Below are positions 773 through 13,071 of a stretch of DNA of 47,894 nt, one piece after another. This DNA is from an uncultured Veillonellaceae bacterium (GTDB taxonomy: Bacteria; Bacillota; Negativicutes; Selenomonadales; Selenomonadaceae). Both the position numbers and the translations under genes were made by a program. Under the pieces are notes generated by a model that was not told the origin of the DNA, did not search any database, and saw only the letters and a program-made list of their open reading frames with translations. Positions within the stretch are counted from its first letter, which is position 1, and each line of letters starts with the position of its first letter. The stretch lies in NCBI GenBank assembly GCA_900316275.1, contig ONCF01000001.1:1-47894 (forward strand). The letters are read 5' to 3'.

Positions 773-801
773 TTGACAATTTTGGGGCGGACGTGTATTA
801 T
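773..801 (+). promoter_or_regulatory. Sigma-70-type promoter for the YezD/nif-like locus
   Basis: TTGACA (773-778) and TATTAT (796-801) are separated by exactly 17 bases. This is the best promoter in the left third of the window and sits about 75 bases before the first gene of the nitrogenase-like locus. A start of transcription near 808 would place the inverted repeat at 826-850 in the early transcribed region. Confidence 0.8.
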
Positions 802-874: not shown

Positions 875-1231
875 ATGCCCGTGAAAGTTGGCAAACGTAT
901 CGAACCGGGAGTCATACCAGCCAGCGTGATGCAGTATATCCTGCAATGCCTGCAGGATATCTGTTATGGGCAGGTGGTGCTCGTAGCGCAGGACGGCAGA
1001 CTCATCCAGGTCGAACGGGAAGAAAAGCTGCGGCTGGCGGGAGCGTGTCTCCAGCGGGAGCATGCGAGCATGGCAGAGGAGGAACTCACCGGTCTCGCGC
1101 AGCGCATCCGCACCGCATTTATCCATTTAGACTTTGGCCAACTGGTCATTGTGGTGAAAGCCGGCAACGTGGTGCAGATAGAGCGCACGGTCAAGCAGCG
1201 GTTCACCGGTCTGGATGGAGAGGGCATTTGA
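875..1231 (+). CDS. Tandem YezD/DUF2292-domain protein
   Basis: The 118-residue product holds two copies of a small domain normally found alone in proteins of about 50 to 60 residues. Unit 1 covers about residues 18-53 (YGQVVLVAQDGRLIQVER) and unit 2 about 74-110 (FGQLVIVVKAGNVVQIER). Both follow the YezD pattern of a short helix, [YF]GQ, a beta pair and Q[VI]ER, then K and R residues. The family has no settled function. ATG at 875 lies only two to three bases from the AAAGGGG ribosome binding site; GTG at 881 has better spacing and may be the real start. It is the first gene after the promoter at 773 and precedes the nifB-like gene, so a role tied to that locus is plausible but inferred. Confidence 0.75.
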   Translation: MPVKVGKRIEPGVIPASVMQYILQCLQDICYGQVVLVAQDGRLIQVEREEKLRLAGACLQREHASMAEEELTGLAQRIRTAFIHLDFGQLVIVVKAGNVVQIERTVKQRFTGLDGEGI

Positions 1232-1270: not shown

Positions 1271-1325
1271 AACAGAAGCCTGCCACAGATTATCGAGGGA
1301 TAGTCTGTGGTGGGCTTCTGTTTTT
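1271..1325 (+). terminator. Terminator or attenuator between yezD-like and nifB-like genes
   Basis: A long stem formed by about 1271-1289 (AACAGAAGCCTGCCACAGA) and 1303-1321 (complement ending in GGGCTTCTG) carries one interior imperfection and is followed by TTTTT (1321-1325). It lies between two genes that otherwise appear to share the promoter at 773. No convincing second promoter is visible between 1232 and 1358, so the hairpin may act as an attenuator with read-through into the nifB-like gene. Confidence 0.8.
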
Positions 1326-1358: not shown

Positions 1359-2222
1359 ATGGACAATGAACGCGTGCGGGAACTGCATCCCTGCTTCGGC
1401 GCCCGGCAGAACCGGGGGCGCATCCATCTGCCGGTCTGCCCCGGCTGCAACATCGCCTGCCGTTTCTGCGACCGCCAGCAGAATGATGTGGAGCAGCGGC
1501 CAGGTGTTGCCAGTTGCCTCATCCAGCCAGAGGAGGCGGCGGAATACGTCGCGCGGGCGCGACGCTTCTGCCCTGAGCTCAGCGTCGTCGGTATCGCCGG
1601 GCCGGGGGACACGCTGGCCTCGGACCGTGCCCTCGAGACGTTCCGTGCTATCGGCAGACGTTTCCCAGATTTACTGAAGTGCATGAGCACGAACGGCCTG
1701 CTGCTGGACGAACGGGCGGACGAGCTCATCGAGCTGGGGCTCGATACCCTGACGGTCACGGTCAATGCGGTAGACCCCGCTATCGGGGCCCAGATCGTTC
1801 GGGGGATTACCTATCACGGCAGGCATTACAGCGGCGAAGAGGCGGCGACCATCCTCATTCAGAATCAGCTGGCGGGCATCCACAAGGTAGCCGCGGCGGG
1901 CATGCTGGTGAAGGTCAACACCGTACTCATTATGGAAATCAACAGTTTCCATATCAAGGAGATTGCGCGGCAGGTCGCGGCGGCGGGCGCGCAGCTGTAT
2001 AACATCATTCCGCTCATCCCGCAGGCCGAGCTCAAGGACTGCCGGGTGCCGACCTGCCCAGAGATTGAGCGCGCACGCGCCGAGGCGGCACCCTACATCG
2101 ACGTGTTCCGCCATTGCCAGCGCTGCCGCGCCGATGCCGTCGGCGTGCCGGGCAAATCCGAGTGCGGCCGCCAGGTATGGCAGAACGCCTTACGGGTGAG
2201 GGAGACCTTTTCTCACGGTTGA
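1359..2222 (+). CDS. nifB: NifB-like radical SAM FeMo-cofactor core (NifB-co) synthase
   Basis: NifB joins two [4Fe-4S] clusters with a carbide and extra sulfide to make the 8Fe core used by nitrogenases. The 287-residue protein shows the family signatures in order: HPCF (10-13), HLPVCPGC then CxxxCxxC for the SAM cluster (Cys30, Cys34, Cys37), QRPGV, GIAGPGDTLA, STNGL, TVTVNAVDP and a C-terminal HCQRCRADAVG. It lacks the C-terminal NifX-like domain found in many bacterial NifB proteins; a separate NifX-like gene lies at 6210. AAGAAGG at 1344-1350 supports the ATG at 1359. Its presence argues that the component-1 proteins downstream carry a nitrogenase-type metallocluster rather than a simple [4Fe-4S] site as in dark-operative reductases. 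Confidence 0.92.
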   Translation: MDNERVRELHPCFGARQNRGRIHLPVCPGCNIACRFCDRQQNDVEQRPGVASCLIQPEEAAEYVARARRFCPELSVVGIAGPGDTLASDRALETFRAIGRRFPDLLKCMSTNGLLLDERADELIELGLDTLTVTVNAVDPAIGAQIVRGITYHGRHYSGEEAATILIQNQLAGIHKVAAAGMLVKVNTVLIMEINSFHIKEIARQVAAAGAQLYNIIPLIPQAELKDCRVPTCPEIERARAEAAPYIDVFRHCQRCRADAVGVPGKSECGRQVWQNALRVRETFSHG

Positions 2223-2299: not shown

Positions 2300-3325
2300 A
2301 TGGCTATTCATCATTCGATTACGGAACTCATCGGGCATACGCCGCTTTTGGAGCTCACAAATTACGAGCGGCAGGAGCACTTGCTGGCCGAGGTGGTCGT
2401 CAAGCTGGAATATTTCAATCCGAACCAAAGCGTCAAGGACCGCATCGCCAACGCGATGATTGAGGACGCGGAGCAGCGGGGACTGCTGCATCCGGGTGAC
2501 ACCATCATCGAGACGACGAGTGGCAACACGGGCATTGGTTTGGCAGCGATTGCGGCAGCTAAAGGCTACCATTTCCGCGTCTATATTCAAGACCAGGTCA
2601 GTGAGGAGCGCTTCAAGGTCATCCGGGCTTTTGGCGGGGAGGCCATCAAGCTCGGCGATGACCCGGAGTTGGCAAAAATTCTTGCGGAGACCGACGGCGA
2701 CTTCGTCGAGGCCTGCAAGGCGCTGCACAAGCGTTATGAGGGCAGGAAAGGCGTATTCTTTGTCGATCAGGTCTCCAACCCGGCCAATCCGGACGTGCAT
2801 AAGCGCACGACGGGCCCGGAAATCTGGGCCGACGCAGAGGGCAAGGTCGACATCCTCGTGGCGGCCGTTGGCACTGGCGGCACGATTTCTGGTACGGGTG
2901 CGTTCCTCAAGTCCAAGAACCCTCAGCTGCAGGTGGTAGCTGTGCAGCCGGGGCCGGACTCCCTGCCGACGGAGGACAATCCTGCACCAGAGTATGAAAT
3001 TACCGGTGTGCATCCTTTTGAGGGGGTCGAGCCCCAACGCATCCCCGCGACGCTGGACCGCAAAATTTATGACGACTGGATTGCCGTAGAGGGTATAGAC
3101 GCCGTGCGCACGGCCCGCGCGGTCGCCAAGAGCGACGGTATCCTGATTGGTACGTCCTCCGGTGCCGCCATCTACGCGGCCACGCAGCTCGCGCGCCGCC
3201 CGGAGAACCGGGGCAAGCGCATCGTGGCGGTGCTGGCGGACACGGGCCTGCGCTACCTGTCGACGAATTTGTTTGCCGCCTCGGACGCAGAGGAGGAGCA
3301 GCTGGCAGAAGCCGTGGGACAATGA
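2300..3325 (+). CDS. Divergent cysteine synthase-like PLP enzyme
   Basis: This 341-residue fold-type II PLP enzyme resembles O-acetylserine sulfhydrylase (CysK/CysM). The PLP lysine is Lys46 in NQSVKDR, the substrate loop TSGNTG is at 73-78, and the phosphate-binding GTGGTISGTG is at 191-200; the C-terminal GTSSGAA is also kept. It departs from classical CysK where MPETMSxER is expected: residues 95-104 read YIQDQVSEER. Activated serine or a similar acceptor plus sulfide or a thiol is the likely reaction type. It lies between nifB-like and nifD-like genes, 45 bases before the latter, so it may capture the sulfur product of the reductase or supply cysteine sulfur for clusters. The start follows AGAAAGGAAG. 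Confidence 0.88.
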   Translation: MAIHHSITELIGHTPLLELTNYERQEHLLAEVVVKLEYFNPNQSVKDRIANAMIEDAEQRGLLHPGDTIIETTSGNTGIGLAAIAAAKGYHFRVYIQDQVSEERFKVIRAFGGEAIKLGDDPELAKILAETDGDFVEACKALHKRYEGRKGVFFVDQVSNPANPDVHKRTTGPEIWADAEGKVDILVAAVGTGGTISGTGAFLKSKNPQLQVVAVQPGPDSLPTEDNPAPEYEITGVHPFEGVEPQRIPATLDRKIYDDWIAVEGIDAVRTARAVAKSDGILIGTSSGAAIYAATQLARRPENRGKRIVAVLADTGLRYLSTNLFAASDAEEEQLAEAVGQ

Positions 3326-3370: not shown

Positions 3371-4882
3371 ATGGCCATACAGTTACAACTATCAGATATC
3401 GGTACCCGCGAGAGCCGTCTGGGCTCCATCACGGGCTATGCGGGAGATTTACAGGACCTGGCCTGCCAAAGCAAATGTGGGACGCTGCGCGGCTGCTCGC
3501 GCTGCTTTTCCCAATCTAGCACCTGCCTGTCCTCCTGCGCCCTGTCACAGCTTTCGGGCATCAGGGATGTGGCCGTCGTGCATCATGGTCCGGCGGGCTG
3601 CTCGACGACGGGCACGCAGAGCTACCGCGTGACGAAGCAGGTGGCCAAAAAGCGCGGTATCGTGAACCATACGGTATATATAGGTACCGATATGAATGAG
3701 CAGGACACAATTTTTGGCGCCAGCGAAAAACTCGCGGCTATCGTGCGCACGACCTACGAGCGCTACCACCCGCAGGCCATCTTTGTCGCCAGCTCCTGCG
3801 CGGCCGGGGTCATCGGCGAGGATATCGACAGCATCGTCGAGACGCTGCGCGAGAAAATCCCCGTGCCCATTGCCGCCGTGCACTGCGAGGGCTTCAAGTC
3901 CCGTATCTGGGCGACAGGTTTCGATATTTCGGATCATGCGGTGCTCACGAGCATTGTGCAGCCGCCCAGGCAGAAACGCAATACCATTAATTTCAAGAAT
4001 TTCTATGAATCCGCCAGACCGGAGATTATCAAGATTTTTGCGGAGTTCGGGGTCAAGCCGGTTTTCCTCTACGCGAATGCGACGGTGGAGGAGCTGGCGC
4101 ACATGTCCGAGGCGCGGGCGACCGTATCTATCTGCGGCACGCTGGGCAATTATCTGGGCACGGCACTGGAGCAGGAATACGGCGTACCGTATGTGCGCAG
4201 TATTAACCCGCTCGGCGTGCAGGGCTTTGAGACCTGGCTGCGCGCCGTGGGCCAGGCTATTGGCGAGGAGGAAAAAGTCGAGGGATATATCGAGCGGGAG
4301 CGGGCCATTTACCTGCCGCAGATTGAGGCGGTCAAAAAAGAACTCAAAGGCCTGCGTTGCGTCATCGGCATGGGGCCGGGCTATACGTTTGAGGTTTCCC
4401 GCGTACTGCAGGAACTTGGTATGGAGGTCGTCTGGGGCGCGGCCTGGCACTATGACAAGCAGTATGATAACGGCAAGGTGCCGCCTTCGATGGATTTCTT
4501 GCTGCAGCATGGCAAGAATTTTAAGGCCAGTGTAGCCGACCAGCAGAATTTCGAGGTGCTCAATATCCTGAACCGCTACCAGCCGGACCTCTATCTGTCG
4601 CGGCACCCCGGCTCCACGGTCTGGGCCATCAAGCAGGGCATTCCCGCCTTGTTTGTCGCCGATGAGTACATGATTTTTGGTTATAAAGGGACGCTGGATT
4701 TTGCCTATGAGGTGCTGAACGCCGTGCGCAACCGCAGTTTTGAGAAAAATCTGGCGGCGCATGTGAAGCTGCCTTACACCAAATGGTGGTATGAGCAAAA
4801 GGTGGATACCTTCCTCGAGCGGCCACAGCAAAAGCAAAAGGCACCGGGTGAGACGGCGGAAGGAGGTGTGGCCCATGGCTAA
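3371..4882 (+). CDS. Nitrogenase-like component 1 alpha subunit (NifD-like 1)
   Basis: At 503 residues this matches NifD-family length. Cys56 (CLSSC), Cys77 (HHGPAGC) and Cys143 (SSCAAGVIGED) correspond to the three P-cluster cysteines of NifD, and Cys255 in SICGTLGNYLG aligns with the FeMo-cofactor cysteine (Cys275 in Azotobacter). In the CEGF segment Gln191 is replaced by Trp180 and His195 by Phe184, and the region of cofactor ligand His442 reads FVADEYMIFGYKG without a histidine. Additional cysteines lie at 32, 36, 42, 45 and 52. It is expected to pair with the product at 4875, with which it overlaps by 8 bases, and to receive electrons from the NifH at 6616. These replacements argue against N2 as substrate. 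AGAGGAGAGG precedes the start. Confidence 0.9.
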   Translation: MAIQLQLSDIGTRESRLGSITGYAGDLQDLACQSKCGTLRGCSRCFSQSSTCLSSCALSQLSGIRDVAVVHHGPAGCSTTGTQSYRVTKQVAKKRGIVNHTVYIGTDMNEQDTIFGASEKLAAIVRTTYERYHPQAIFVASSCAAGVIGEDIDSIVETLREKIPVPIAAVHCEGFKSRIWATGFDISDHAVLTSIVQPPRQKRNTINFKNFYESARPEIIKIFAEFGVKPVFLYANATVEELAHMSEARATVSICGTLGNYLGTALEQEYGVPYVRSINPLGVQGFETWLRAVGQAIGEEEKVEGYIERERAIYLPQIEAVKKELKGLRCVIGMGPGYTFEVSRVLQELGMEVVWGAAWHYDKQYDNGKVPPSMDFLLQHGKNFKASVADQQNFEVLNILNRYQPDLYLSRHPGSTVWAIKQGIPALFVADEYMIFGYKGTLDFAYEVLNAVRNRSFEKNLAAHVKLPYTKWWYEQKVDTFLERPQQKQKAPGETAEGGVAHG

Positions 4883-6179
4883 AATTCTCGATAAGCAACG
4901 TTACAAATGCGCGATGAGCGCGATGTCGACGGTGCAGGCCATCGAGGGGGCCATCCCCATCCTGCATTCCGGTCCGGGCTGCGCCGAGAAGCTGTCCAAC
5001 TCCGCGGGCAGCAGCGGGCATTACTCACCGAACATCTTTCCCTGCACGAGTGTCAACGAGCGCGATGTCGTCTTCGGCGGTGAAAAGAAGCTGCGCGCGA
5101 CCATTACCAACGCGCTGAAGGTCATCGACGCGGACATGTTCATCGTGCTCAGCGGCTGCACGTCGGAGATTGTCGGCGATACGATTGAGGAGGTGGTCAG
5201 TGAATTCCAGGGGGCGGAGAAACCGGTGCTGTTCGCCTCGACGCCTGGTTTCAAGGGCAATAACTACCGCGGTCATGAATGGGTCGTGGATGCCATTATC
5301 GAACAGTATCTGGAGCCAGTGCCCGAGGCGGAGAAAGACCCGTTGCTCGTGAATATTTGGGCGGATGTCCCGTATCAGGACGAGTTCTGGGCGGGCAACT
5401 ACCGCGCGCTCGAACAGCTGCTCCGCGATATCGGCCTCAAACCGAATGTCATCTTCGGCATTCACCGCGGGGTGCAGAACATCAAAAAAATTCCCTATGC
5501 TGGTTTCAATCTGCTCGTTTCTCCCTGGGTGGGGCTGGAAAACGTCCAGCGCATGCAAAAGAAATTTGGCACGCCATACCTGCATTGGCCGACGCTGCCG
5601 ATTGGCGCCTTTGAGACCAGCAAATTTGTACGGGCCGTGGCTGACTTTGCCCAGCTGCCACCGGAACCAGTCGAAAAATACATCGAGGAGCGTGAGTCAG
5701 AGTATTATGGCTACATCGAGCGCTTTGCCGATATCTTTCTCGAGACACGCGCGATGTCCCGCCGGTTCTCGGTGGTGGCCGATGCCCAGTATGCGCTGGG
5801 CATTACGAAATTTCTCGTCAACGACCTCGGCCGCCTGCCGGCCAATCAGTACGTGGTGGACGACACGCCGGCGGAATATCAGGCACCGATTCGCGGCTAT
5901 TTTGCGGATTTGAACTACCATATCCGTGCCAACGTGGCCTTTACCGTCGATGGCTGGGAAATCCATCAGGATATCAAAAATACAGATTATCACGGCTATC
6001 CGCTGATTATCGGCAGTTATTGGGAAAAAGAGCTGGCGCAGGAAACGGACGCGCATTACCTGAATGTCTCGTGGCCGGTCAATGAACGCCTCGTCATCAA
6101 CGGCTATTATGTCGGCTATGGCGGCGGCCTGCGGCTGCTGGAGGATATCTATTCCGTCGTGCGCACGCGGTTCAATTGA
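4875..6179 (+). CDS. Nitrogenase-like component 1 beta subunit (NifK-like 1)
   Basis: The 434-residue protein is a NifK-family subunit. Cys12 (YKCAMSA), Cys36 (HSGPGC) and Cys95 (LSGCTSEIVGD) match the three NifK P-cluster cysteines, so an interfacial 8Fe cluster with NifD-like 1 is likely. GFKGNNYRGHEW and the LLVSPWVGL and GTPYLHWPTLPIG segments are shared with the second NifK-like protein at 11719. It is shorter than classical molybdenum NifK (about 520 residues) because it lacks the N-terminal extension. ATG at 4875 is used because GAAGGAGG precedes it and homology begins there; the gene overlaps the alpha-subunit stop, implying translational coupling. Confidence 0.9.
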   Translation: MAKILDKQRYKCAMSAMSTVQAIEGAIPILHSGPGCAEKLSNSAGSSGHYSPNIFPCTSVNERDVVFGGEKKLRATITNALKVIDADMFIVLSGCTSEIVGDTIEEVVSEFQGAEKPVLFASTPGFKGNNYRGHEWVVDAIIEQYLEPVPEAEKDPLLVNIWADVPYQDEFWAGNYRALEQLLRDIGLKPNVIFGIHRGVQNIKKIPYAGFNLLVSPWVGLENVQRMQKKFGTPYLHWPTLPIGAFETSKFVRAVADFAQLPPEPVEKYIEERESEYYGYIERFADIFLETRAMSRRFSVVADAQYALGITKFLVNDLGRLPANQYVVDDTPAEYQAPIRGYFADLNYHIRANVAFTVDGWEIHQDIKNTDYHGYPLIIGSYWEKELAQETDAHYLNVSWPVNERLVINGYYVGYGGGLRLLEDIYSVVRTRFN

Positions 6180-6209: not shown

Positions 6210-6572
6210 ATGAGCTACCTACTGGCGGCTGCTTCCAGCGATGGCGTAAATATCGACCGCCATTTCGGTCATGCAGATACGTTCCAGATAGTCGAGCTGG
6301 CGGAGGACGGAACAAACTGGCAAGTTATCGGACAGCGGGAGGTCGTTTCCCCGTGTCAGCACGGCAGTCACGCGGCAGAGGCGATGCAGGCGGCGGTGAG
6401 CCGTCTGGCGGATTGCCGTTATGTGCTGGCGGAGGCTATCGGCCGCGGCGCCTATGCCTCTTTGCAGGCCCAGGGCATCACGCCGCTGGAGACAGGCGAT
6501 ACGCTGCCGATAAGCCAGGCCGTAGAGGATTTGCTGCGCTATGAAAGGCGCAGACATAAACGACCAGTATAA
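6210..6572 (+). CDS. NifX/NifB-C-terminal-like cofactor-binding protein
   Basis: This 120-residue protein belongs to the dinitrogenase iron-molybdenum cofactor family (NifX, NafY, VnfX and the C-terminal domain of NifB). The signature DRHFGHADTFQIVEL at about 17-31 and the later ADCRYVLAEAIGRGAYASLQAQGI are typical. Such proteins bind NifB-co or cofactor precursors and pass them to the scaffold or the apo-enzyme. In this locus NifB lacks its own NifX-like domain, so the two halves appear to be separate polypeptides. AAAGGAGG stands directly before the ATG, and nifH follows after a 43-base gap. Confidence 0.85.
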   Translation: MSYLLAAASSDGVNIDRHFGHADTFQIVELAEDGTNWQVIGQREVVSPCQHGSHAAEAMQAAVSRLADCRYVLAEAIGRGAYASLQAQGITPLETGDTLPISQAVEDLLRYERRRHKRPV

Positions 6573-7473: not shown

Positions 7474-7510
7474 CAAATTCACGCATGGTCATGCGGGTTA
7501 TCCGAAAACG

Positions 7511-7551
7511 GAAGCCTGCCGCCCCGGTCAGGGGAGCGGCAGGCTTTTTTC
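7511..7551 (+). terminator. Rho-independent terminator after nifH
   Basis: AGCCTGCCGC (7513-7522) pairs perfectly with GCGGCAGGCT (7536-7545), with extra C/G pairing inside and a T run at 7545-7550. It separates nifB-to-nifH from the transporter and the second DK pair. No clear promoter is visible between it and 7567, so partial read-through is likely. Confidence 0.88.
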
Positions 7552-7566
7552 ATAGGGGTGAGTTCG

Positions 7567-8667
7567 ATGAAACATAACATTGCCGCAGTGGCGGCCATAT
7601 TACTGCTCGTCAGCAGCCTGCTTATACTGGGCTGCGGGAGCCAGGCTGATTCTGCCAAGAACGCAGACAGCGAGCCTTTGCAGGTGACCATCCACACGAA
7701 TATGGTCGGCAGCGCGCTGACGGTACTGGCGCAGAATGCCGGTTTTTATGAGGAGGAAGGCGTACCAGTGCAGCTGCAGGTCATGAACGGCCCTTCCTCC
7801 GACTCTCTGTCTGCACTGGCGACGGGGAAGGTCGCGCTCACGACGGGCGGTATTGGCTCGGCTGCCCCACTGCGCATGATAGATGGCGGCGCGGACTTCG
7901 TCATCATCGGCGGGCAGATGAGTGAGGGTGCAGATCTGGTGACTCTGCCAGAGAAAAAGCGCGAGTGGGAAAATCTGACCGCTGAGTCGGTGCAGGGCAA
8001 GCGCATTGGTGTCATCCGCGCGTCCTCTGGTGATATCGCCCTGCGCGGGGCACTGGTGCGTCGGGGCATTGACCTCAGTACCATCCAGTTTGTTGAGCTC
8101 GCCAATGAACCGACCATTATTGAAGCGGTGAAGAAAGGGGAGGTTGATGTCGGCAATGTCGCGACCAATCTGCGGGACACGGCACATGAACAGGGGCTGG
8201 TCTCCTCGCTGCATGTCGATGAGTTGGCACCGGATTTCATCTGCTGCCGTCTGGTGACGACCAGCCAGGAGATTGCGGCGCACCGTCCGGAGCTCGTGCG
8301 TTTCCTGCGGGCGCAGCTCAAGGCCTATCGTATGCTGAAAAATGAGCCGGAGAAGACGCTGGCACTCGTGCATCAGACCATAGAGGTTGATGATAAGATT
8401 TTGCGCAGCCAGCTCTACACCTACGGACATTTTAAGCTTTCACCTGACCCGACGGGCGAGCGCGTCGTGGATTTTTACGATACGATGCGCTATGTCGGCT
8501 ATATTGAGGGCAAGGCGGATATAGCCAAACATATCGATACGAGCCTGTATCAGGAGGCACTCGCCTCGCTGCTGGCAGAGGAGCCGGAAGAGCCTGTCTG
8601 GCAGCAGCTGCGTGAGGAGTATAAACGCAATGATGGTGCGTGGCCGGGAGGTGGTGACCATGCCTGA
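7567..8667 (+). CDS. ABC transporter substrate-binding lipoprotein (SsuA/NMT1-like)
   Basis: The product of 366 residues begins with a lipoprotein signal (hydrophobic core at 5-21, Cys23 in LILGC as the predicted lipidation site). The rest resembles periplasmic binding proteins of the SsuA/TauA/NMT1 type: VTIHTNMVGSAL, the LATGKVALTTGGIGSA core, and GKRIGVIRASSGD. These families bind sulfonates, taurine, nitrate, pyrimidine precursors or related small molecules. The ATG at 7567 is preferred to the GTG at 7558 because AGGGGTG ends six bases before it. It overlaps the ATPase gene by 8 bases. Its place between nifH and the second DK pair suggests it binds the reductase substrate; identity of the ligand is unknown. 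Confidence 0.88.
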   Translation: MKHNIAAVAAILLLVSSLLILGCGSQADSAKNADSEPLQVTIHTNMVGSALTVLAQNAGFYEEEGVPVQLQVMNGPSSDSLSALATGKVALTTGGIGSAAPLRMIDGGADFVIIGGQMSEGADLVTLPEKKREWENLTAESVQGKRIGVIRASSGDIALRGALVRRGIDLSTIQFVELANEPTIIEAVKKGEVDVGNVATNLRDTAHEQGLVSSLHVDELAPDFICCRLVTTSQEIAAHRPELVRFLRAQLKAYRMLKNEPEKTLALVHQTIEVDDKILRSQLYTYGHFKLSPDPTGERVVDFYDTMRYVGYIEGKADIAKHIDTSLYQEALASLLAEEPEEPVWQQLREEYKRNDGAWPGGGDHA

Positions 8668-9475
8668 AGCCAGGTCACCCAAAATCGAGTTTGCGGATGT
8701 TTCGCTGGTCTATCACGATGGGAGCCAGACCAACGAGGTGCTGCACGCGATGAATTTTTCCGTGGCGCCGGGCGAATTCGTCAGTATTATCGGGGCTTCG
8801 GGCTGTGGCAAAAGTACAACCCTCAGCATTTTAGCCGGCTTACAGGAACCCAGCAGCGGACATTATTATATCGATGGTCGGGAAAGTCATGGTACCGGGC
8901 GCAACCGCGGCGTGGTTTTCCAGCATTATGCGCTCTTTCCCTGGATGACAGCGAAGGCCAATGTGGCTTTTGGCGCGCGGCAGGCTCAGCCGGATTTGGC
9001 CTCGCGTGAGGCGGGACAGCGCGCCTGCGAGTATTTGTCCCGGGTCGGTCTGGCAGGAGCGGAGAACCGCTATCCCTACCAGATGTCGGGCGGGATGCAG
9101 CAGCGCACGGCCATCGCCAGGTTGTTGGCGATGAGCCCGGAGATTTTGCTGCTGGACGAGCCCTTTGGGGCCGTCGATGCGAAGAACCGCATGCAGTTGC
9201 AGGACCTGCTGCAGGAGCTTTTACTGCAGGAACAGCGGCGAAAGACCATTGTCCTGGTCACGCACGATATTGATGAAGCTATTCTGCTTTCGGACCGCGT
9301 GTTTTTTATGGATAAGCAAAAGATTGCGGAGGAGTTTACTGTGCCGTTTGCGCGGCCGCGCCGACGTGAACAAATCGTGTTGACGGAGGCCTACCGGCAG
9401 CTGAGCCAAAGTATCCTGAGCTGCTTTTTCCGTACCATCGGGGAGCAGATTGGTGGTGAGGAGGTGGTTATATGA
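8660..9475 (+). CDS. ABC transporter ATP-binding protein (SsuB/TauB-like)
   Basis: This 271-residue ATPase has Walker A GASGCGKST (45-53), Q-loop VVFQHYALFPW, the signature MSGGMQQR (142-149), Walker B ILLLDEP (162-168) and the H-loop in LVTHDIDEA. Sequence and length match the nitrate/sulfonate/taurine branch. ATG at 8660 follows GGGAGGTGG and overlaps the end of the binding-protein gene; the 3' end overlaps the permease start by 4 bases (ATGA). It energises import through the permease at 9472. Confidence 0.9.
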   Translation: MPEARSPKIEFADVSLVYHDGSQTNEVLHAMNFSVAPGEFVSIIGASGCGKSTTLSILAGLQEPSSGHYYIDGRESHGTGRNRGVVFQHYALFPWMTAKANVAFGARQAQPDLASREAGQRACEYLSRVGLAGAENRYPYQMSGGMQQRTAIARLLAMSPEILLLDEPFGAVDAKNRMQLQDLLQELLLQEQRRKTIVLVTHDIDEAILLSDRVFFMDKQKIAEEFTVPFARPRRREQIVLTEAYRQLSQSILSCFFRTIGEQIGGEEVVI

Positions 9476-10212
9476 GTGCGAGGGCAGGCAGGGATATCAC
9501 CGGCATCATTCTGTTGTCGCTCGTCTTGTGGCAGTTTTTCACCAGTGGCGATGCCGTCAATACCATGCTCTATCCGCAGCTGCGTGATATTGTGGCCATC
9601 TTTGCGACGGACTGGCGGAAAATGTTGCTGGGGATAGGCTCATCCATGTATCTTTTGGGCACGGGCATGGGGCTGGCGCTGATTTTGGGCATTGTGCTCG
9701 GCCTGCTTACCGGCGGCAGTACACGTCTCAGTGAGGCGCTGCTGCCGCTGGCGAAGGTCATCAGCCCAGTGCCACCGATTATTTATACGCCCTATGCGGT
9801 GGCCGTGCTGCCGAGTTTTGAGATTGCTTCCATCTTTGTGATTTTCAGCAGTATCTTTTGGCAGATCTATATTCAGGTGGCCACGGCCGTGCGCGGTATT
9901 GACCCCAAGCTGCTGGATTCGGCGCGGACGCTGAATCTGAATGCCTGGTCGATGCTTTGGCATGTGCTCTGGCCCTATTGCCTGCCGCGCATCATGAAGG
10001 CATTGCCAGTGGCCGTAGCCAATGCCTTCATGGTCCTGACGGCAGCCGAGATGATTGGCGCGCAGTCCGGGCTGGGTTACTATGTACGTTATTATGCGGA
10101 CTTTGCGGATTATACCCGGGTTATTGCCGGTATTTTGTTGATTGGTATCGTGGTTTCTCTGCTTAATGGCGGCATAGCGATACTGGAGCGGCGTCTGGTG
10201 CGCTGGCATTAA
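9472..10212 (+). CDS. ABC transporter permease (SsuC/TauC-like)
   Basis: The 246-residue membrane protein has about six hydrophobic segments and the binding-protein-dependent transport inner-membrane loop around residues 138-160 (AVRGIDPKLLDSARTLNLN), where it would contact the ATPase. AEMIGAQSGLGYYVRYYADF near the C-terminal part is typical of SsuC/TauC permeases. It starts inside the ATPase stop (ATGA) and is followed 14 bases later by the second NifD-like gene, so transporter and reductase are likely cotranslated from one mRNA. Confidence 0.9.
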   Translation: MSARAGRDITGIILLSLVLWQFFTSGDAVNTMLYPQLRDIVAIFATDWRKMLLGIGSSMYLLGTGMGLALILGIVLGLLTGGSTRLSEALLPLAKVISPVPPIIYTPYAVAVLPSFEIASIFVIFSSIFWQIYIQVATAVRGIDPKLLDSARTLNLNAWSMLWHVLWPYCLPRIMKALPVAVANAFMVLTAAEMIGAQSGLGYYVRYYADFADYTRVIAGILLIGIVVSLLNGGIAILERRLVRWH

Positions 10213-10226
10213 AGGAGGTTTGTACG

Positions 10227-11735
10227 ATGAAAGTATATAAAGGCACGGCAGAAGTGGAGGTCAGGGACCGCAGGTTGAAAACCATCATTGCCTACGACGG
10301 TTCTGGCAAGCAGCTGTTAGCTGAGGCGGCCACGGGGCATGTGCGCTGCCCAGGACGTGGCTTCAGTCAGTGCAGCGACTGCGCCGAGGGCTGCAGTGAG
10401 TCGATGACGCTCAACGTGCGCGATGCGGCCGTGGTCAGCCATGCACCGCTCGGCTGCATGACGGATGTCTCAGCACAGAATGTGCGTGAGCGCAGTACAG
10501 CCGAGATACAGGGCGCGCCGCCCGCGCGGGCACGCATCATCAGCAGCAACATTCAGGAGAAAGATACGGTATATGGCGCTGCACAGAAGCTGCGGGCGGC
10601 CATCCGCGAGGCGGACCGGCGTTTTCGGCCGAAGACGATTTTCGTCCTGAGTTCCTGCGCGGCGGGCATTATCGGCGAGGATATCGAGAGTATATCCAGC
10701 GAGATGGAGTCAGAACTGGGTTATCCGGTGGTGCCCGTCTATTGTGAGGGCTTCAAGTCCAAGACCTGGTCGTCCGGCTTTGATGCGGGTTATCACGCCA
10801 TTCTCCGCAAGCTGGTGCCACCGCCGCGCAAGACCCAGCCGGATTTGGTCAATATGTTCAATTTTCAGGACAAGGATGTTTTCACCGACCTGTTCAAGCG
10901 TATCGGTTTGCGTATCAATCTGGTCCTGCCGATGACGACGACGATCAAAAATATCGCGCAGCTTTCGGAGGCAGCGTGCTCGGCCCATATCTGCGAGACA
11001 CTCGCGACCTATATCGCCGCCTCGCTCGAGGAGCTTTATGGCGTGCCGGAGGTCAAGACACCGCCACCGTACGGACTGGATTGGACGGACCGCTGGCTGC
11101 GCGAGATTGGCCGCCTGACACATCGCGAGGAGGCGGTAGAGCAGGTCATCGCTGAGGAGCGGGAGCGTATCGCCGCGGAGCTGGCGGACCTGCGGGCGCA
11201 GCTCGCGGGAAAGACCATCTATATCGTTGCGGGCGATACGTATGCGTATAACCTGGCGAATCTCGTGAAAGATTTGGGCTTGCAGGTCGTCGGGTTGAAT
11301 ATGCTGCACCATGACTTGCATCCCGATACGGCAGAGCAGGCGTATCTCCTGCAGGAATTTACGGCTGCCCAGGGGGATATGCAGCGCGTCAGCGTGTGCA
11401 ACAAGCAGCCGTACCGCATTGTGAAGCTTTTGCGCGAGCTGCAGCCGGATTTTGTGGTCGTGCGCCACCCGGGGCTGACTTCCTTTGGCACGAAGGTGGG
11501 CATTCCGACGATTTTGGAAACAGATGCCAATGCCAGCAGCGGCTACGAGGGTGTGCTGAACATGGGGCGACGCCTGCTGCGCGGCTTGCGCTCGCACCGC
11601 TTCACCGAGACGGTCGCGCGTCATGCCCGGCTGCCGTATTCCCACTGGTGGCTGAATGAAGGACAGCTGTATCCAGGCCGGACCGCCGCAACCGTAGCGG
11701 CAGAAGCAGAGGAAGGACGTGAAAAAATTGGCTGA
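10227..11735 (+). CDS. Nitrogenase-like component 1 alpha subunit (NifD-like 2)
   Basis: The second NifD-family protein has 502 residues. Cys56, Cys77 (SHAPLGC) and Cys144 (SSCAAGIIGEDIE) match the P-cluster cysteines and Cys256 (HICETLATYIA) the cofactor cysteine. As in NifD-like 1, the Gln191 and His195 equivalents are Trp181 and Phe185, and no histidine stands near the His442 position (ILETDANASSGYEG). An N-terminal cysteine group is at 41, 49, 52 and 56. It has about 35 residues before these cysteines. The two D proteins share these replacements, so they look like paralogues. Either this pair is a second reductase or a NifEN-like scaffold on which the cofactor matures. AAAGGAGG precedes the ATG. 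Confidence 0.9.
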   Translation: MKVYKGTAEVEVRDRRLKTIIAYDGSGKQLLAEAATGHVRCPGRGFSQCSDCAEGCSESMTLNVRDAAVVSHAPLGCMTDVSAQNVRERSTAEIQGAPPARARIISSNIQEKDTVYGAAQKLRAAIREADRRFRPKTIFVLSSCAAGIIGEDIESISSEMESELGYPVVPVYCEGFKSKTWSSGFDAGYHAILRKLVPPPRKTQPDLVNMFNFQDKDVFTDLFKRIGLRINLVLPMTTTIKNIAQLSEAACSAHICETLATYIAASLEELYGVPEVKTPPPYGLDWTDRWLREIGRLTHREEAVEQVIAEERERIAAELADLRAQLAGKTIYIVAGDTYAYNLANLVKDLGLQVVGLNMLHHDLHPDTAEQAYLLQEFTAAQGDMQRVSVCNKQPYRIVKLLRELQPDFVVVRHPGLTSFGTKVGIPTILETDANASSGYEGVLNMGRRLLRGLRSHRFTETVARHARLPYSHWWLNEGQLYPGRTAATVAAEAEEGREKIG

Positions 11736-13071
11736 GGCGTTAAATTTGATTGAACAGCCGCGTTATGGCTGCGCTCTGGCGGCACAGCAGACGGTGCTGG
11801 CTATCCCTGGGGCGCTGCCCATCCTGCATGCGGGGCCGGGCTGCTCGGCCAAGGCCACGACCTATGCCGTGTCGGGCGCCGGTTTTCAGGGCGAGGGGTA
11901 TGGCGGGGGACCACATATCGCCTCCTCGAATATGGATGAACAGGATGTGGTGTTCGGCGGCGAGAATAAACTGCGCCGTAATGTCAAAGGCGCGCTGCGC
12001 GTGCTCGACGGCGATTTGTACGCCATTCTGACCGGCTGCACGGCCGATATTGTCGGCGACGATACTTTGTCTGTGGCCAGGGATTTTGCGGAGGAGGGCT
12101 ATCCGGTCATCGGCGTTGAGACCGCCGGTTTCAAGGGCTCGAACTACTATGGGCACGAGGAGGTGATGCGGGCCATTATCGAGCAGTATGTCGGGGAGCG
12201 GTCGGCACAGGTCGTGCCGCACCGCGTGAATGTCTTCGCCTCGGTGCCGTATCAGGACCCGTTCTGGCGCGGCGACCTAGAGGAAATCCAGCGCCTCCTG
12301 ACAGCTCTGGGACTTGATGTACATGTGCTGTTCGGCTATGGCTCGGCCGGTGTGTCCGAGTGGCAGCAGCTGCCGGAGGCTGAGTTCAATCTGCTGCTTT
12401 CCCCGTGGGTCGGACGCAAGACCGTCGAGCTGCTCAAGGCGCAATATGGCACGCCTTACCTGCATTATCCCATCCTGCCGGTTGGCGGGGCTGAGACCAG
12501 CCGGTTTCTGCGGGAGGTCGCCACCTACGCGGGCCTGTCCAAGCGGGCAGAAAAAGTGATTGCCCGTGAGGAGCGGCGCTTTTATGCGTACTTTGAGGCA
12601 GCGTCGGATTTCATCACGGAGTATCAGAATAAGCTGCCGGAGGATTTCTATCTCGTGGCGGACAGCCATTATGCTACGGGCATCGCAGCGTTTCTCGTAG
12701 AGGAGCTCGGTCTGCAGCCGGCGCAAATCTACATTACGGAGACGGTGCGCCAGCAGGACCAGCAGGCCATCCGCAAGTTCCTGACCGGGCGGGCGGCAGA
12801 GTTTCAGGACCGCGTGACCTTTGAAAGTGATGGCGGCCTGATTGAGGAGGACTTGCGCCGTCGCCTAAAGGGCAGACCGCGTAGTGTGATTCTCGGCAGT
12901 AACTGGGAAAAATTTGTCGCGCAGGATACAGGTAATCTCTACACCTACGTCAGCCTGCCACTCAACGAGACCCTGATTACGCAACGCAGCTATGCGGGCT
13001 ACCGGGGCGGACTGGCGCTGATGGAGGATCTATACAGCTCAGTTTTCCGTACAGGTACGATAACGCGCTGA
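11719..13071 (+). CDS. Nitrogenase-like component 1 beta subunit (NifK-like 2)
   Basis: This 450-residue NifK-family protein pairs with NifD-like 2 and overlaps its gene by 17 bases. Cys18 (RYGCALAA), Cys42 (HAGPGC) and Cys107 (LTGCTADIVGDD) are equivalent to the P-cluster cysteines. GFKGSNYYGHEE, LLLSPWVGR and GTPYLHYPILPVG mirror NifK-like 1. Translation starts at GTG 11719 with GAGGAAGGA just upstream; no suitable ATG exists nearby. A glycine-rich stretch at about 54-65 (AGFQGEGYGGGP) replaces the serine-rich stretch of NifK-like 1. It is the last gene of the nitrogenase-like locus; no terminator is seen after it. Confidence 0.9.
   Translation: MKKLAEALNLIEQPRYGCALAAQQTVLAIPGALPILHAGPGCSAKATTYAVSGAGFQGEGYGGGPHIASSNMDEQDVVFGGENKLRRNVKGALRVLDGDLYAILTGCTADIVGDDTLSVARDFAEEGYPVIGVETAGFKGSNYYGHEEVMRAIIEQYVGERSAQVVPHRVNVFASVPYQDPFWRGDLEEIQRLLTALGLDVHVLFGYGSAGVSEWQQLPEAEFNLLLSPWVGRKTVELLKAQYGTPYLHYPILPVGGAETSRFLREVATYAGLSKRAEKVIAREERRFYAYFEAASDFITEYQNKLPEDFYLVADSHYATGIAAFLVEELGLQPAQIYITETVRQQDQQAIRKFLTGRAAEFQDRVTFESDGGLIEEDLRRRLKGRPRSVILGSNWEKFVAQDTGNLYTYVSLPLNETLITQRSYAGYRGGLALMEDLYSSVFRTGTITR

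Follow-up and report, generated by a model that had tools for sequence, protein, structure and literature searches.

A three-gene ABC importer in a bacterium of the Selenomonadaceae stands directly ahead of a pair of nitrogenase-like genes, here called D2 and K2, and we think it probable (at roughly 0.6) that importer and D2K2 form one module, which takes up an organosulfur compound from outside and cleaves its C-S bond reductively so that the sulfur can be assimilated. The window, meaning the whole stretch of 47,894 nucleotides that was analysed, is one contig (C31) of a 2.19 Mb assembly, and the genes lie within its first 13 kb in a codirectional cluster (0.9-13.1 kb) in the order OscA-like, NifB, CysK, D1K1, NifX, NifH, importer, D2K2. 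As a galacturonidase-like glycosidase is found downstream of K2, the cluster is considered to end with K2. Its features are as follows.

773..801, +, promoter-like site of the sigma-70 type, TTGACA-17-TATTAT, upstream of the cluster (11/12 consensus matches; a consensus match only)
875..1231, +, tandem DUF2292 / OscA-like (sulfur-starvation response) protein; PF10055 71.5 bits, NF033785 OscA 47.1 bits against a cut-off of 85
1273..1320, +, very strong terminator-like hairpin with T-run in the OscA-like/nifB-like gap; z -9.2
1359..2222, +, NifB/MarB-like radical SAM protein; PF04055, TIGR01290 NifB 259.5 bits, under the cut-off of 343.65
2300..3325, +, CysK, a cysteine synthase-like PLP enzyme; PF00291, cysKM 322.9 bits, slightly under the cut-off of 344
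3371..4882, +, NifD-like 1 (D1); PF00148, best solved relative R. rubrum MarD at 333.8 bits, complete Mar cluster ligands
4875..6179, +, NifK-like 1 (K1); PF00148, three P-cluster Cys
6210..6572, +, NifX/NafY-like Nitro_FeMo-Co domain protein; PF02579 69.4 bits
6616..7473, +, NifH-like reductase component, the only copy in the cluster; PF00142 435 bits, TIGR01287 469 bits, Cys99 and Cys134 conserved
7510..7552 (approximate limits), +, terminator-like hairpin with T-run in the nifH/importer gap
7567..8667, +, importer binding protein, a lipoprotein of the NMT1/SsuA superfamily; ATG at 7567 (a GTG at 7558 is also possible), lipobox LILGC, CCR motif C226 C227 R228
8660..9475, +, importer ATPase; ATG at 8660, PF00005 115.8 bits
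9472..10212, +, importer permease; PF00528 65.6 bits
10227..11735, +, NifD-like 2 (D2); [Fe8S9C] ligands of the Mar type, placed in a separate clade that is sister to MarD
11719..13071, +, NifK-like 2 (K2); P-cluster Cys 18, 42 and 107

The preliminary description had placed the importer between nifH and the second DK pair at 7567-10212, and these limits hold: binding protein and ATPase overlap by 8 bases, ATPase and permease by 4 bases (ATGA), and 14 bases separate the permease from the D2 start at 10227. Co-expression of the importer with the reductase had been proposed as well, which seems to stand for D2K2, tightly joined to the importer, but not for nifH, which is cut off by a terminator-like hairpin that had gone unnoticed. 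Folding of the nifH-importer gap (7474-7566) gave a strong GC-rich hairpin followed by a T-run, with an RNA MFE of -42.9 kcal/mol and a z of -4.5. Since no promoter-like match was found 3' of this hairpin, readthrough or attenuation at this point seems likely, and the tightly coupled unit would comprise the importer and D2K2 only. No riboswitches were found in the window, and two sub-threshold plant-miRNA matches were put down to chance. The OscA-like gene (875-1231) has its own arrangement, with a near-consensus promoter 5' and a very stable terminator-like hairpin 3', after which nifB-like follows; OscA-like sequences were also seen near other group IV clusters (L036, L037, L060, L066, L067, L078, L093 and L096).

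D1 and D2 are both much closer to MarD of R. rubrum, the D protein of methylthio-alkane reductase (Mar), than to any nitrogenase, and for D2 the best solved relative is MarD (9fmg/9d9u) at 400 bits, with nitrogenases at 128 or less. Membership of nitrogenase groups I-III was rejected, as D1 scored 143.4 and D2 144 bits against 653.55 for nifD and other alpha models were also far under. Mapped by sequence onto the published MarD structure, D2 retains the P-cluster Cys66/91/158, Cys270 and Arg428-His429, and the same ligand set is found in D1; the cluster ligands are those described in PMC12552129, where Arg-His is given as a possible Mar hallmark. K2 likewise carries three P-cluster Cys, so that three in D and three in K, the number expected of Mar, are present. 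The second sphere of Mar is only partly kept, with Trp195, Phe199 and His375 retained in D2 and Cys73, Gln74 and His194 replaced by Ser, Met and Thr.

In a tree of D and MarD proteins, for which the program warned of long branches, D2 falls outside the R. rubrum MarD clade, in a 16-row clade (support 100/100) that is sister to the 11-row MarD clade (support of the union 99/98). The latter consists of the R. rubrum protein and ten Negativicutes proteins with its pocket, and D1 belongs to a third clade of four rows. At 67 positions that are invariant in the MarD clade every D2-clade row differs, including two beside the cluster, Cys73 (Ser/Thr/Gly in the D2 clade) and His194 (Thr/Ile/Val/Leu), whereas extra Cys at MarD positions 63 and 70, flanking P-cluster Cys66, occur in every row of the D2 clade and in none of the MarD clade. 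An assignment of D2K2 as isethionate reductase (Isr) failed on two counts, since D1 and D2 keep all the residues that the Isr signature (one P-cluster Cys, no active-site Cys/His) lacks, and since IsrB is not NifB-like and the radical SAM protein of the window reaches 259.5 bits to TIGR01290 NifB. Judged by sequence, D2K2 is neither a nitrogenase, nor a NifEN-type scaffold, nor Isr.

Several other arrangements of such genes were observed. Two more divergent nitrogenase-like DK pairs occur in the same genome (L146 on G000:C61 and L147 on G000:C58), one with its own NifH next to a gene that we take to be HypF-like and the other next to one that we take to be HypE-like, both names having been assigned by reading sequences only. 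At L059:12377-15439 two D2-type D genes in tandem are followed by a single K, and next to D2K2 at L037 and L042-L045, from Kineothrix and Treponema-type genomes, lies a serine-dehydratase-like fusion protein (SDH_alpha).

The linkage of importer and D2K2 is real, and a few genomes conserve it more than chance would allow; a lack of conservation, which the preliminary description had named as counter-evidence, was not seen. The order binding protein, ATPase, permease, D2, K2 was found in four genomes of two classes, representing three Negativicutes families and a Clostridiales MAG; besides the window, the loci are L036/L064, L065 and L097+L038 (across a contig break), one case thus depending on the joining of two contigs. 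In the Clostridiales MAG, CysK lies between the binding protein and the ATPase, and the contig end splits the permease into a piece of residues 9-59 and, on the second contig, one of residues 58-246. At L065:13533-14890 the K2 homologue extends over two ORFs, by frameshift or assembly error. Within a sample of 300 genomes the binding-protein family was present in 3 of the 6 D2-clade genomes against 0.5 expected (P about 0.011, for genomes that are not phylogenetically independent and with that of the window counted among the three), each time with the genes adjacent. An importer was found within 6 kb and on the same strand in 15 of the 16 D2-clade members, the exception being a 6.8 kb contig; eight rows have an Ssu-type and seven a polar-amino-acid-type importer, and a single change on the tree separates them. 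This conserved adjacency, and an importer type that tracks the D2 tree, fit the earlier proposal that the importer is coupled to a nitrogenase-like reductase and hence that the substrate is an external solute. Other group IV clades have MetNIQ-type importers and Cys/Met PLP enzymes nearby, indicating that a neighbouring importer is a general habit and not specific to the window.

The binding protein had been described as belonging to the sulfonate/nitrate/NMT1 class, and this holds at the level of the superfamily only, with "sulfonate" unproven: it scored 65 bits against a cut-off of 20.5 for the NMT1/THI5-like superfamily (PF09084), but reached just 67.5 bits of the 163.5 required by the NCBIfam SsuA_fam model (TIGR01728). 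The AF2 model (mean pLDDT 63) has a type-II binding-protein fold, and its top Foldseek matches, Thi5 and a thiamin-bound binding protein, were tied with TauA, SsuA, CmpA and NrtA. Assignment of a ligand from the fold was therefore abandoned, as CmpA, NrtA, ThiY, SsuA and Thi5 were within a few Z of each other. A comparison of the pocket with TauA, one of the two suggested earlier, gave no more than a hint, at about 16% identity. In this alignment, read by eye, Ser154 is opposite the sulfonate-contacting Thr132 of TauA (residue roles from PMC6906117), and the sulfonate ligand Gln30 is opposite Asn45 in a weak alignment (E 1.5e-5). Nothing in the analysis shows the ligand to be a sulfonate, nitrate, nitrile or thiocyanate, the ligands that had been envisaged, and our leading guess is a methylated organosulfur acid.

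The relatives of the binding protein, all of which carry the CCR motif in the tree examined, show that the importer is not specific to this reductase. The closest (60-63%) are in five same-family genomes that hold no D2-type match at 1e-40, suggesting that the importer has a use without D2K2; one of these loci is beside a CGS-like enzyme and CysK, and one is near an OscA-like gene. Sixteen further homologues are mostly found with corrinoid methyltransferases. Most of the more distant loci are in clusters of URO-D-type methyltransferases, RACo and B12-binding proteins that, by their Pfam content, resemble type I mlp and are often near other DK genes and CysK; in type I mlp clusters (non-selenium) group IV-A MarHDK-like genes and sulfur metabolism have already been noted (PMC10418091). 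At L133:3171-3268 a SAM riboswitch heads an operon of a CGS-like PLP enzyme, corrinoid methyltransferase genes and a CCR-motif importer, and none was found at seven other importer loci of the corrinoid-methyltransferase type. Taken together, these loci place the family in a methyl-sulfur or organosulfur context, whether or not a nitrogenase-like partner is present.

The neighbours in the window have a similar bearing. Indirectly, OscA-like proteins suggest sulfur limitation and CysK suggests sulfide or a thiol as product; work on oscA is cited in PMC2996968. With CGS-type PLP enzymes they make up a sulfur context that speaks for an organosulfur module and, like the precedent of IsrBHDK and SsuCAB (PMC11423573), fits an external solute. 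The preliminary contrast of an external compound "rather than a gas" is too blunt, as Mar takes dissolved small thioethers such as dimethyl sulfide. Gene order, ligand residues, clade, conserved adjacency and sulfur-related neighbours can be read directly from the DNA, and from them we infer C-S cleavage by D2K2, the imported compound as its substrate and the fate of the sulfur. A small organosulfur compound from outside, which probably bears an anionic group, would be captured by the lipoprotein and taken into the cell by the ABC importer. There D2K2, receiving electrons from the single NifH of the cluster, may break the C-S bond reductively at an [Fe8S9C] cluster of the Mar type, which the NifB-like protein would build, cluster precursor synthesis being the role inferred for this radical SAM protein; the released thiol or sulfide could then pass into cysteine or methionine via CysK-type enzymes under sulfur limitation. 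Against such a module are the importer relatives without D2K2, the nifH-importer hairpin and inorganic sulfur use by the host. The last is likely, as an AsrC-like reductase adjoins a sulfate-binding protein in the window's genome, and the organosulfur module would then be a supplement.

Other readings of the same genes were weighed. It is rather unlikely that the importer is a general one for organosulfur compounds or other nutrients that merely lies beside D2K2, the latter acting on an internal or diffusing thioether. The five same-family genomes and the methyltransferase loci described above would fit a general importer, and the Mar substrates are small diffusing thioethers (PMC12552129), but a five-gene order shared by four genomes of two classes and the match of importer type to D2 subclade are not what would be expected of chance neighbours. 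We consider it improbable that the cluster is a second sulfonate system, in which D2K2 would release sulfite from an imported sulfonate as IsrBHDK with SsuCAB does. The overall logic is that of PMC11423573, the binding protein is of the right superfamily, Ser154 is in the place of a sulfonate-contacting residue, and the AsrC-like protein is a candidate sulfite reductase, so that the lack of such an enzyme failed as an argument against sulfonates. However, D2 has the full Mar set in place of the Isr D signature, the binding protein is far below the SsuA cut-off, and, in a weak alignment, Asn45 stands opposite the Gln30 of TauA. The Isr residue pattern is instead seen in a D protein at L073:18416-19837, in a Negativicutes genome, with its own K and an Ssu-type importer adjoining.

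Two further explanations have very little probability. If D2K2 were a NifEN-like scaffold that matures the D1K1 cofactor, the importer being unrelated, the sharing of a single NifH, NifB and NifX by two DK pairs would be accounted for, as with NifDK and NifEN; yet D2K2 has a full P-cluster Cys set, and in G382 and G384 (Treponema and Butyrivibrio; MAGs) no PF00148 pair besides it was found, so that no other DK would be served there. Equally doubtful is an importer for a thiamine precursor or another non-sulfur ligand of the NMT1 type, to which the top Foldseek matches might point, as scans of the window and of relatives gave no TPP riboswitch, the neighbours are sulfur or methyl-sulfur genes, and the operon of one relative is preceded by a SAM riboswitch.

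For most group IV nitrogenase-like enzymes we know of no substrate. Similar pairings of an importer with a nitrogenase-like enzyme are already known, but the D2 clade is uncharacterised, and the adjoining importer provides a handle on it, since the class of substrate on which the enzyme acts should become apparent from what the binding protein binds. More tentatively, and with the odds somewhat against it, D2K2 may be the first of a distinct kind of nitrogenase-family enzyme, a carbide-cluster C-S reductase acting on a water-soluble organosulfur anion such as a methylthio-carboxylate. This anion would enter the cell through an importer dedicated to D2K2, recruited from the CCR-motif family whose members in other loci serve corrinoid methyl-sulfur clusters. 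If uptake and C-S cleavage are indeed coupled, nitrogenase-type carbide clusters would be extended from volatile thioethers to imported solutes, which would bear on how anaerobes scavenge sulfur and release gas.

Among known systems, MarBHDK of Rhodospirillum rubrum (group IV-C), whose substrates include 2-(methylthio)ethanol and dimethyl sulfide (PMC12552129), and ethyl methyl sulfide as well, also combines a NifB-type protein with H, D and K, and all its P-cluster and [Fe8S9C] ligands and the Arg428-His429 hallmark recur in D2K2. Unlike Mar, the window has a dedicated importer, and the D2 clade is separate, with its 67 changed positions and two extra invariant Cys near the P-cluster; D2K2 is built like Mar while departing from it in second-sphere residues and in lying outside the MarD clade. 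The closest functional precedent is IsrBHDK with SsuCAB of Rhodobacter capsulatus, both of which were shown by genetics to be needed for isethionate use (PMC11423573) and in which, too, an Ssu-superfamily importer brings in an external organosulfur compound for a nitrogenase-like reductase. The likeness is one of outline and not of identity, as Isr D is without most cluster ligands, IsrB resembles BciD where its counterpart here is NifB-like, and the Isr importer genes are apart from isrBHDK. The alkanesulfonate importers SsuABC and TauABC have the same ABC importer superfamily and binding-protein fold, whereas the binding protein of the window, with its low SsuA score, belongs to a CCR-motif family of its own and has Arg228 where TauA has Asp205. 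Finally, relatives of the importer sit in corrinoid methyltransferase clusters like those of type I mlp (PMC10418091), from which the cluster in the window differs in having no corrinoid methyltransferase.
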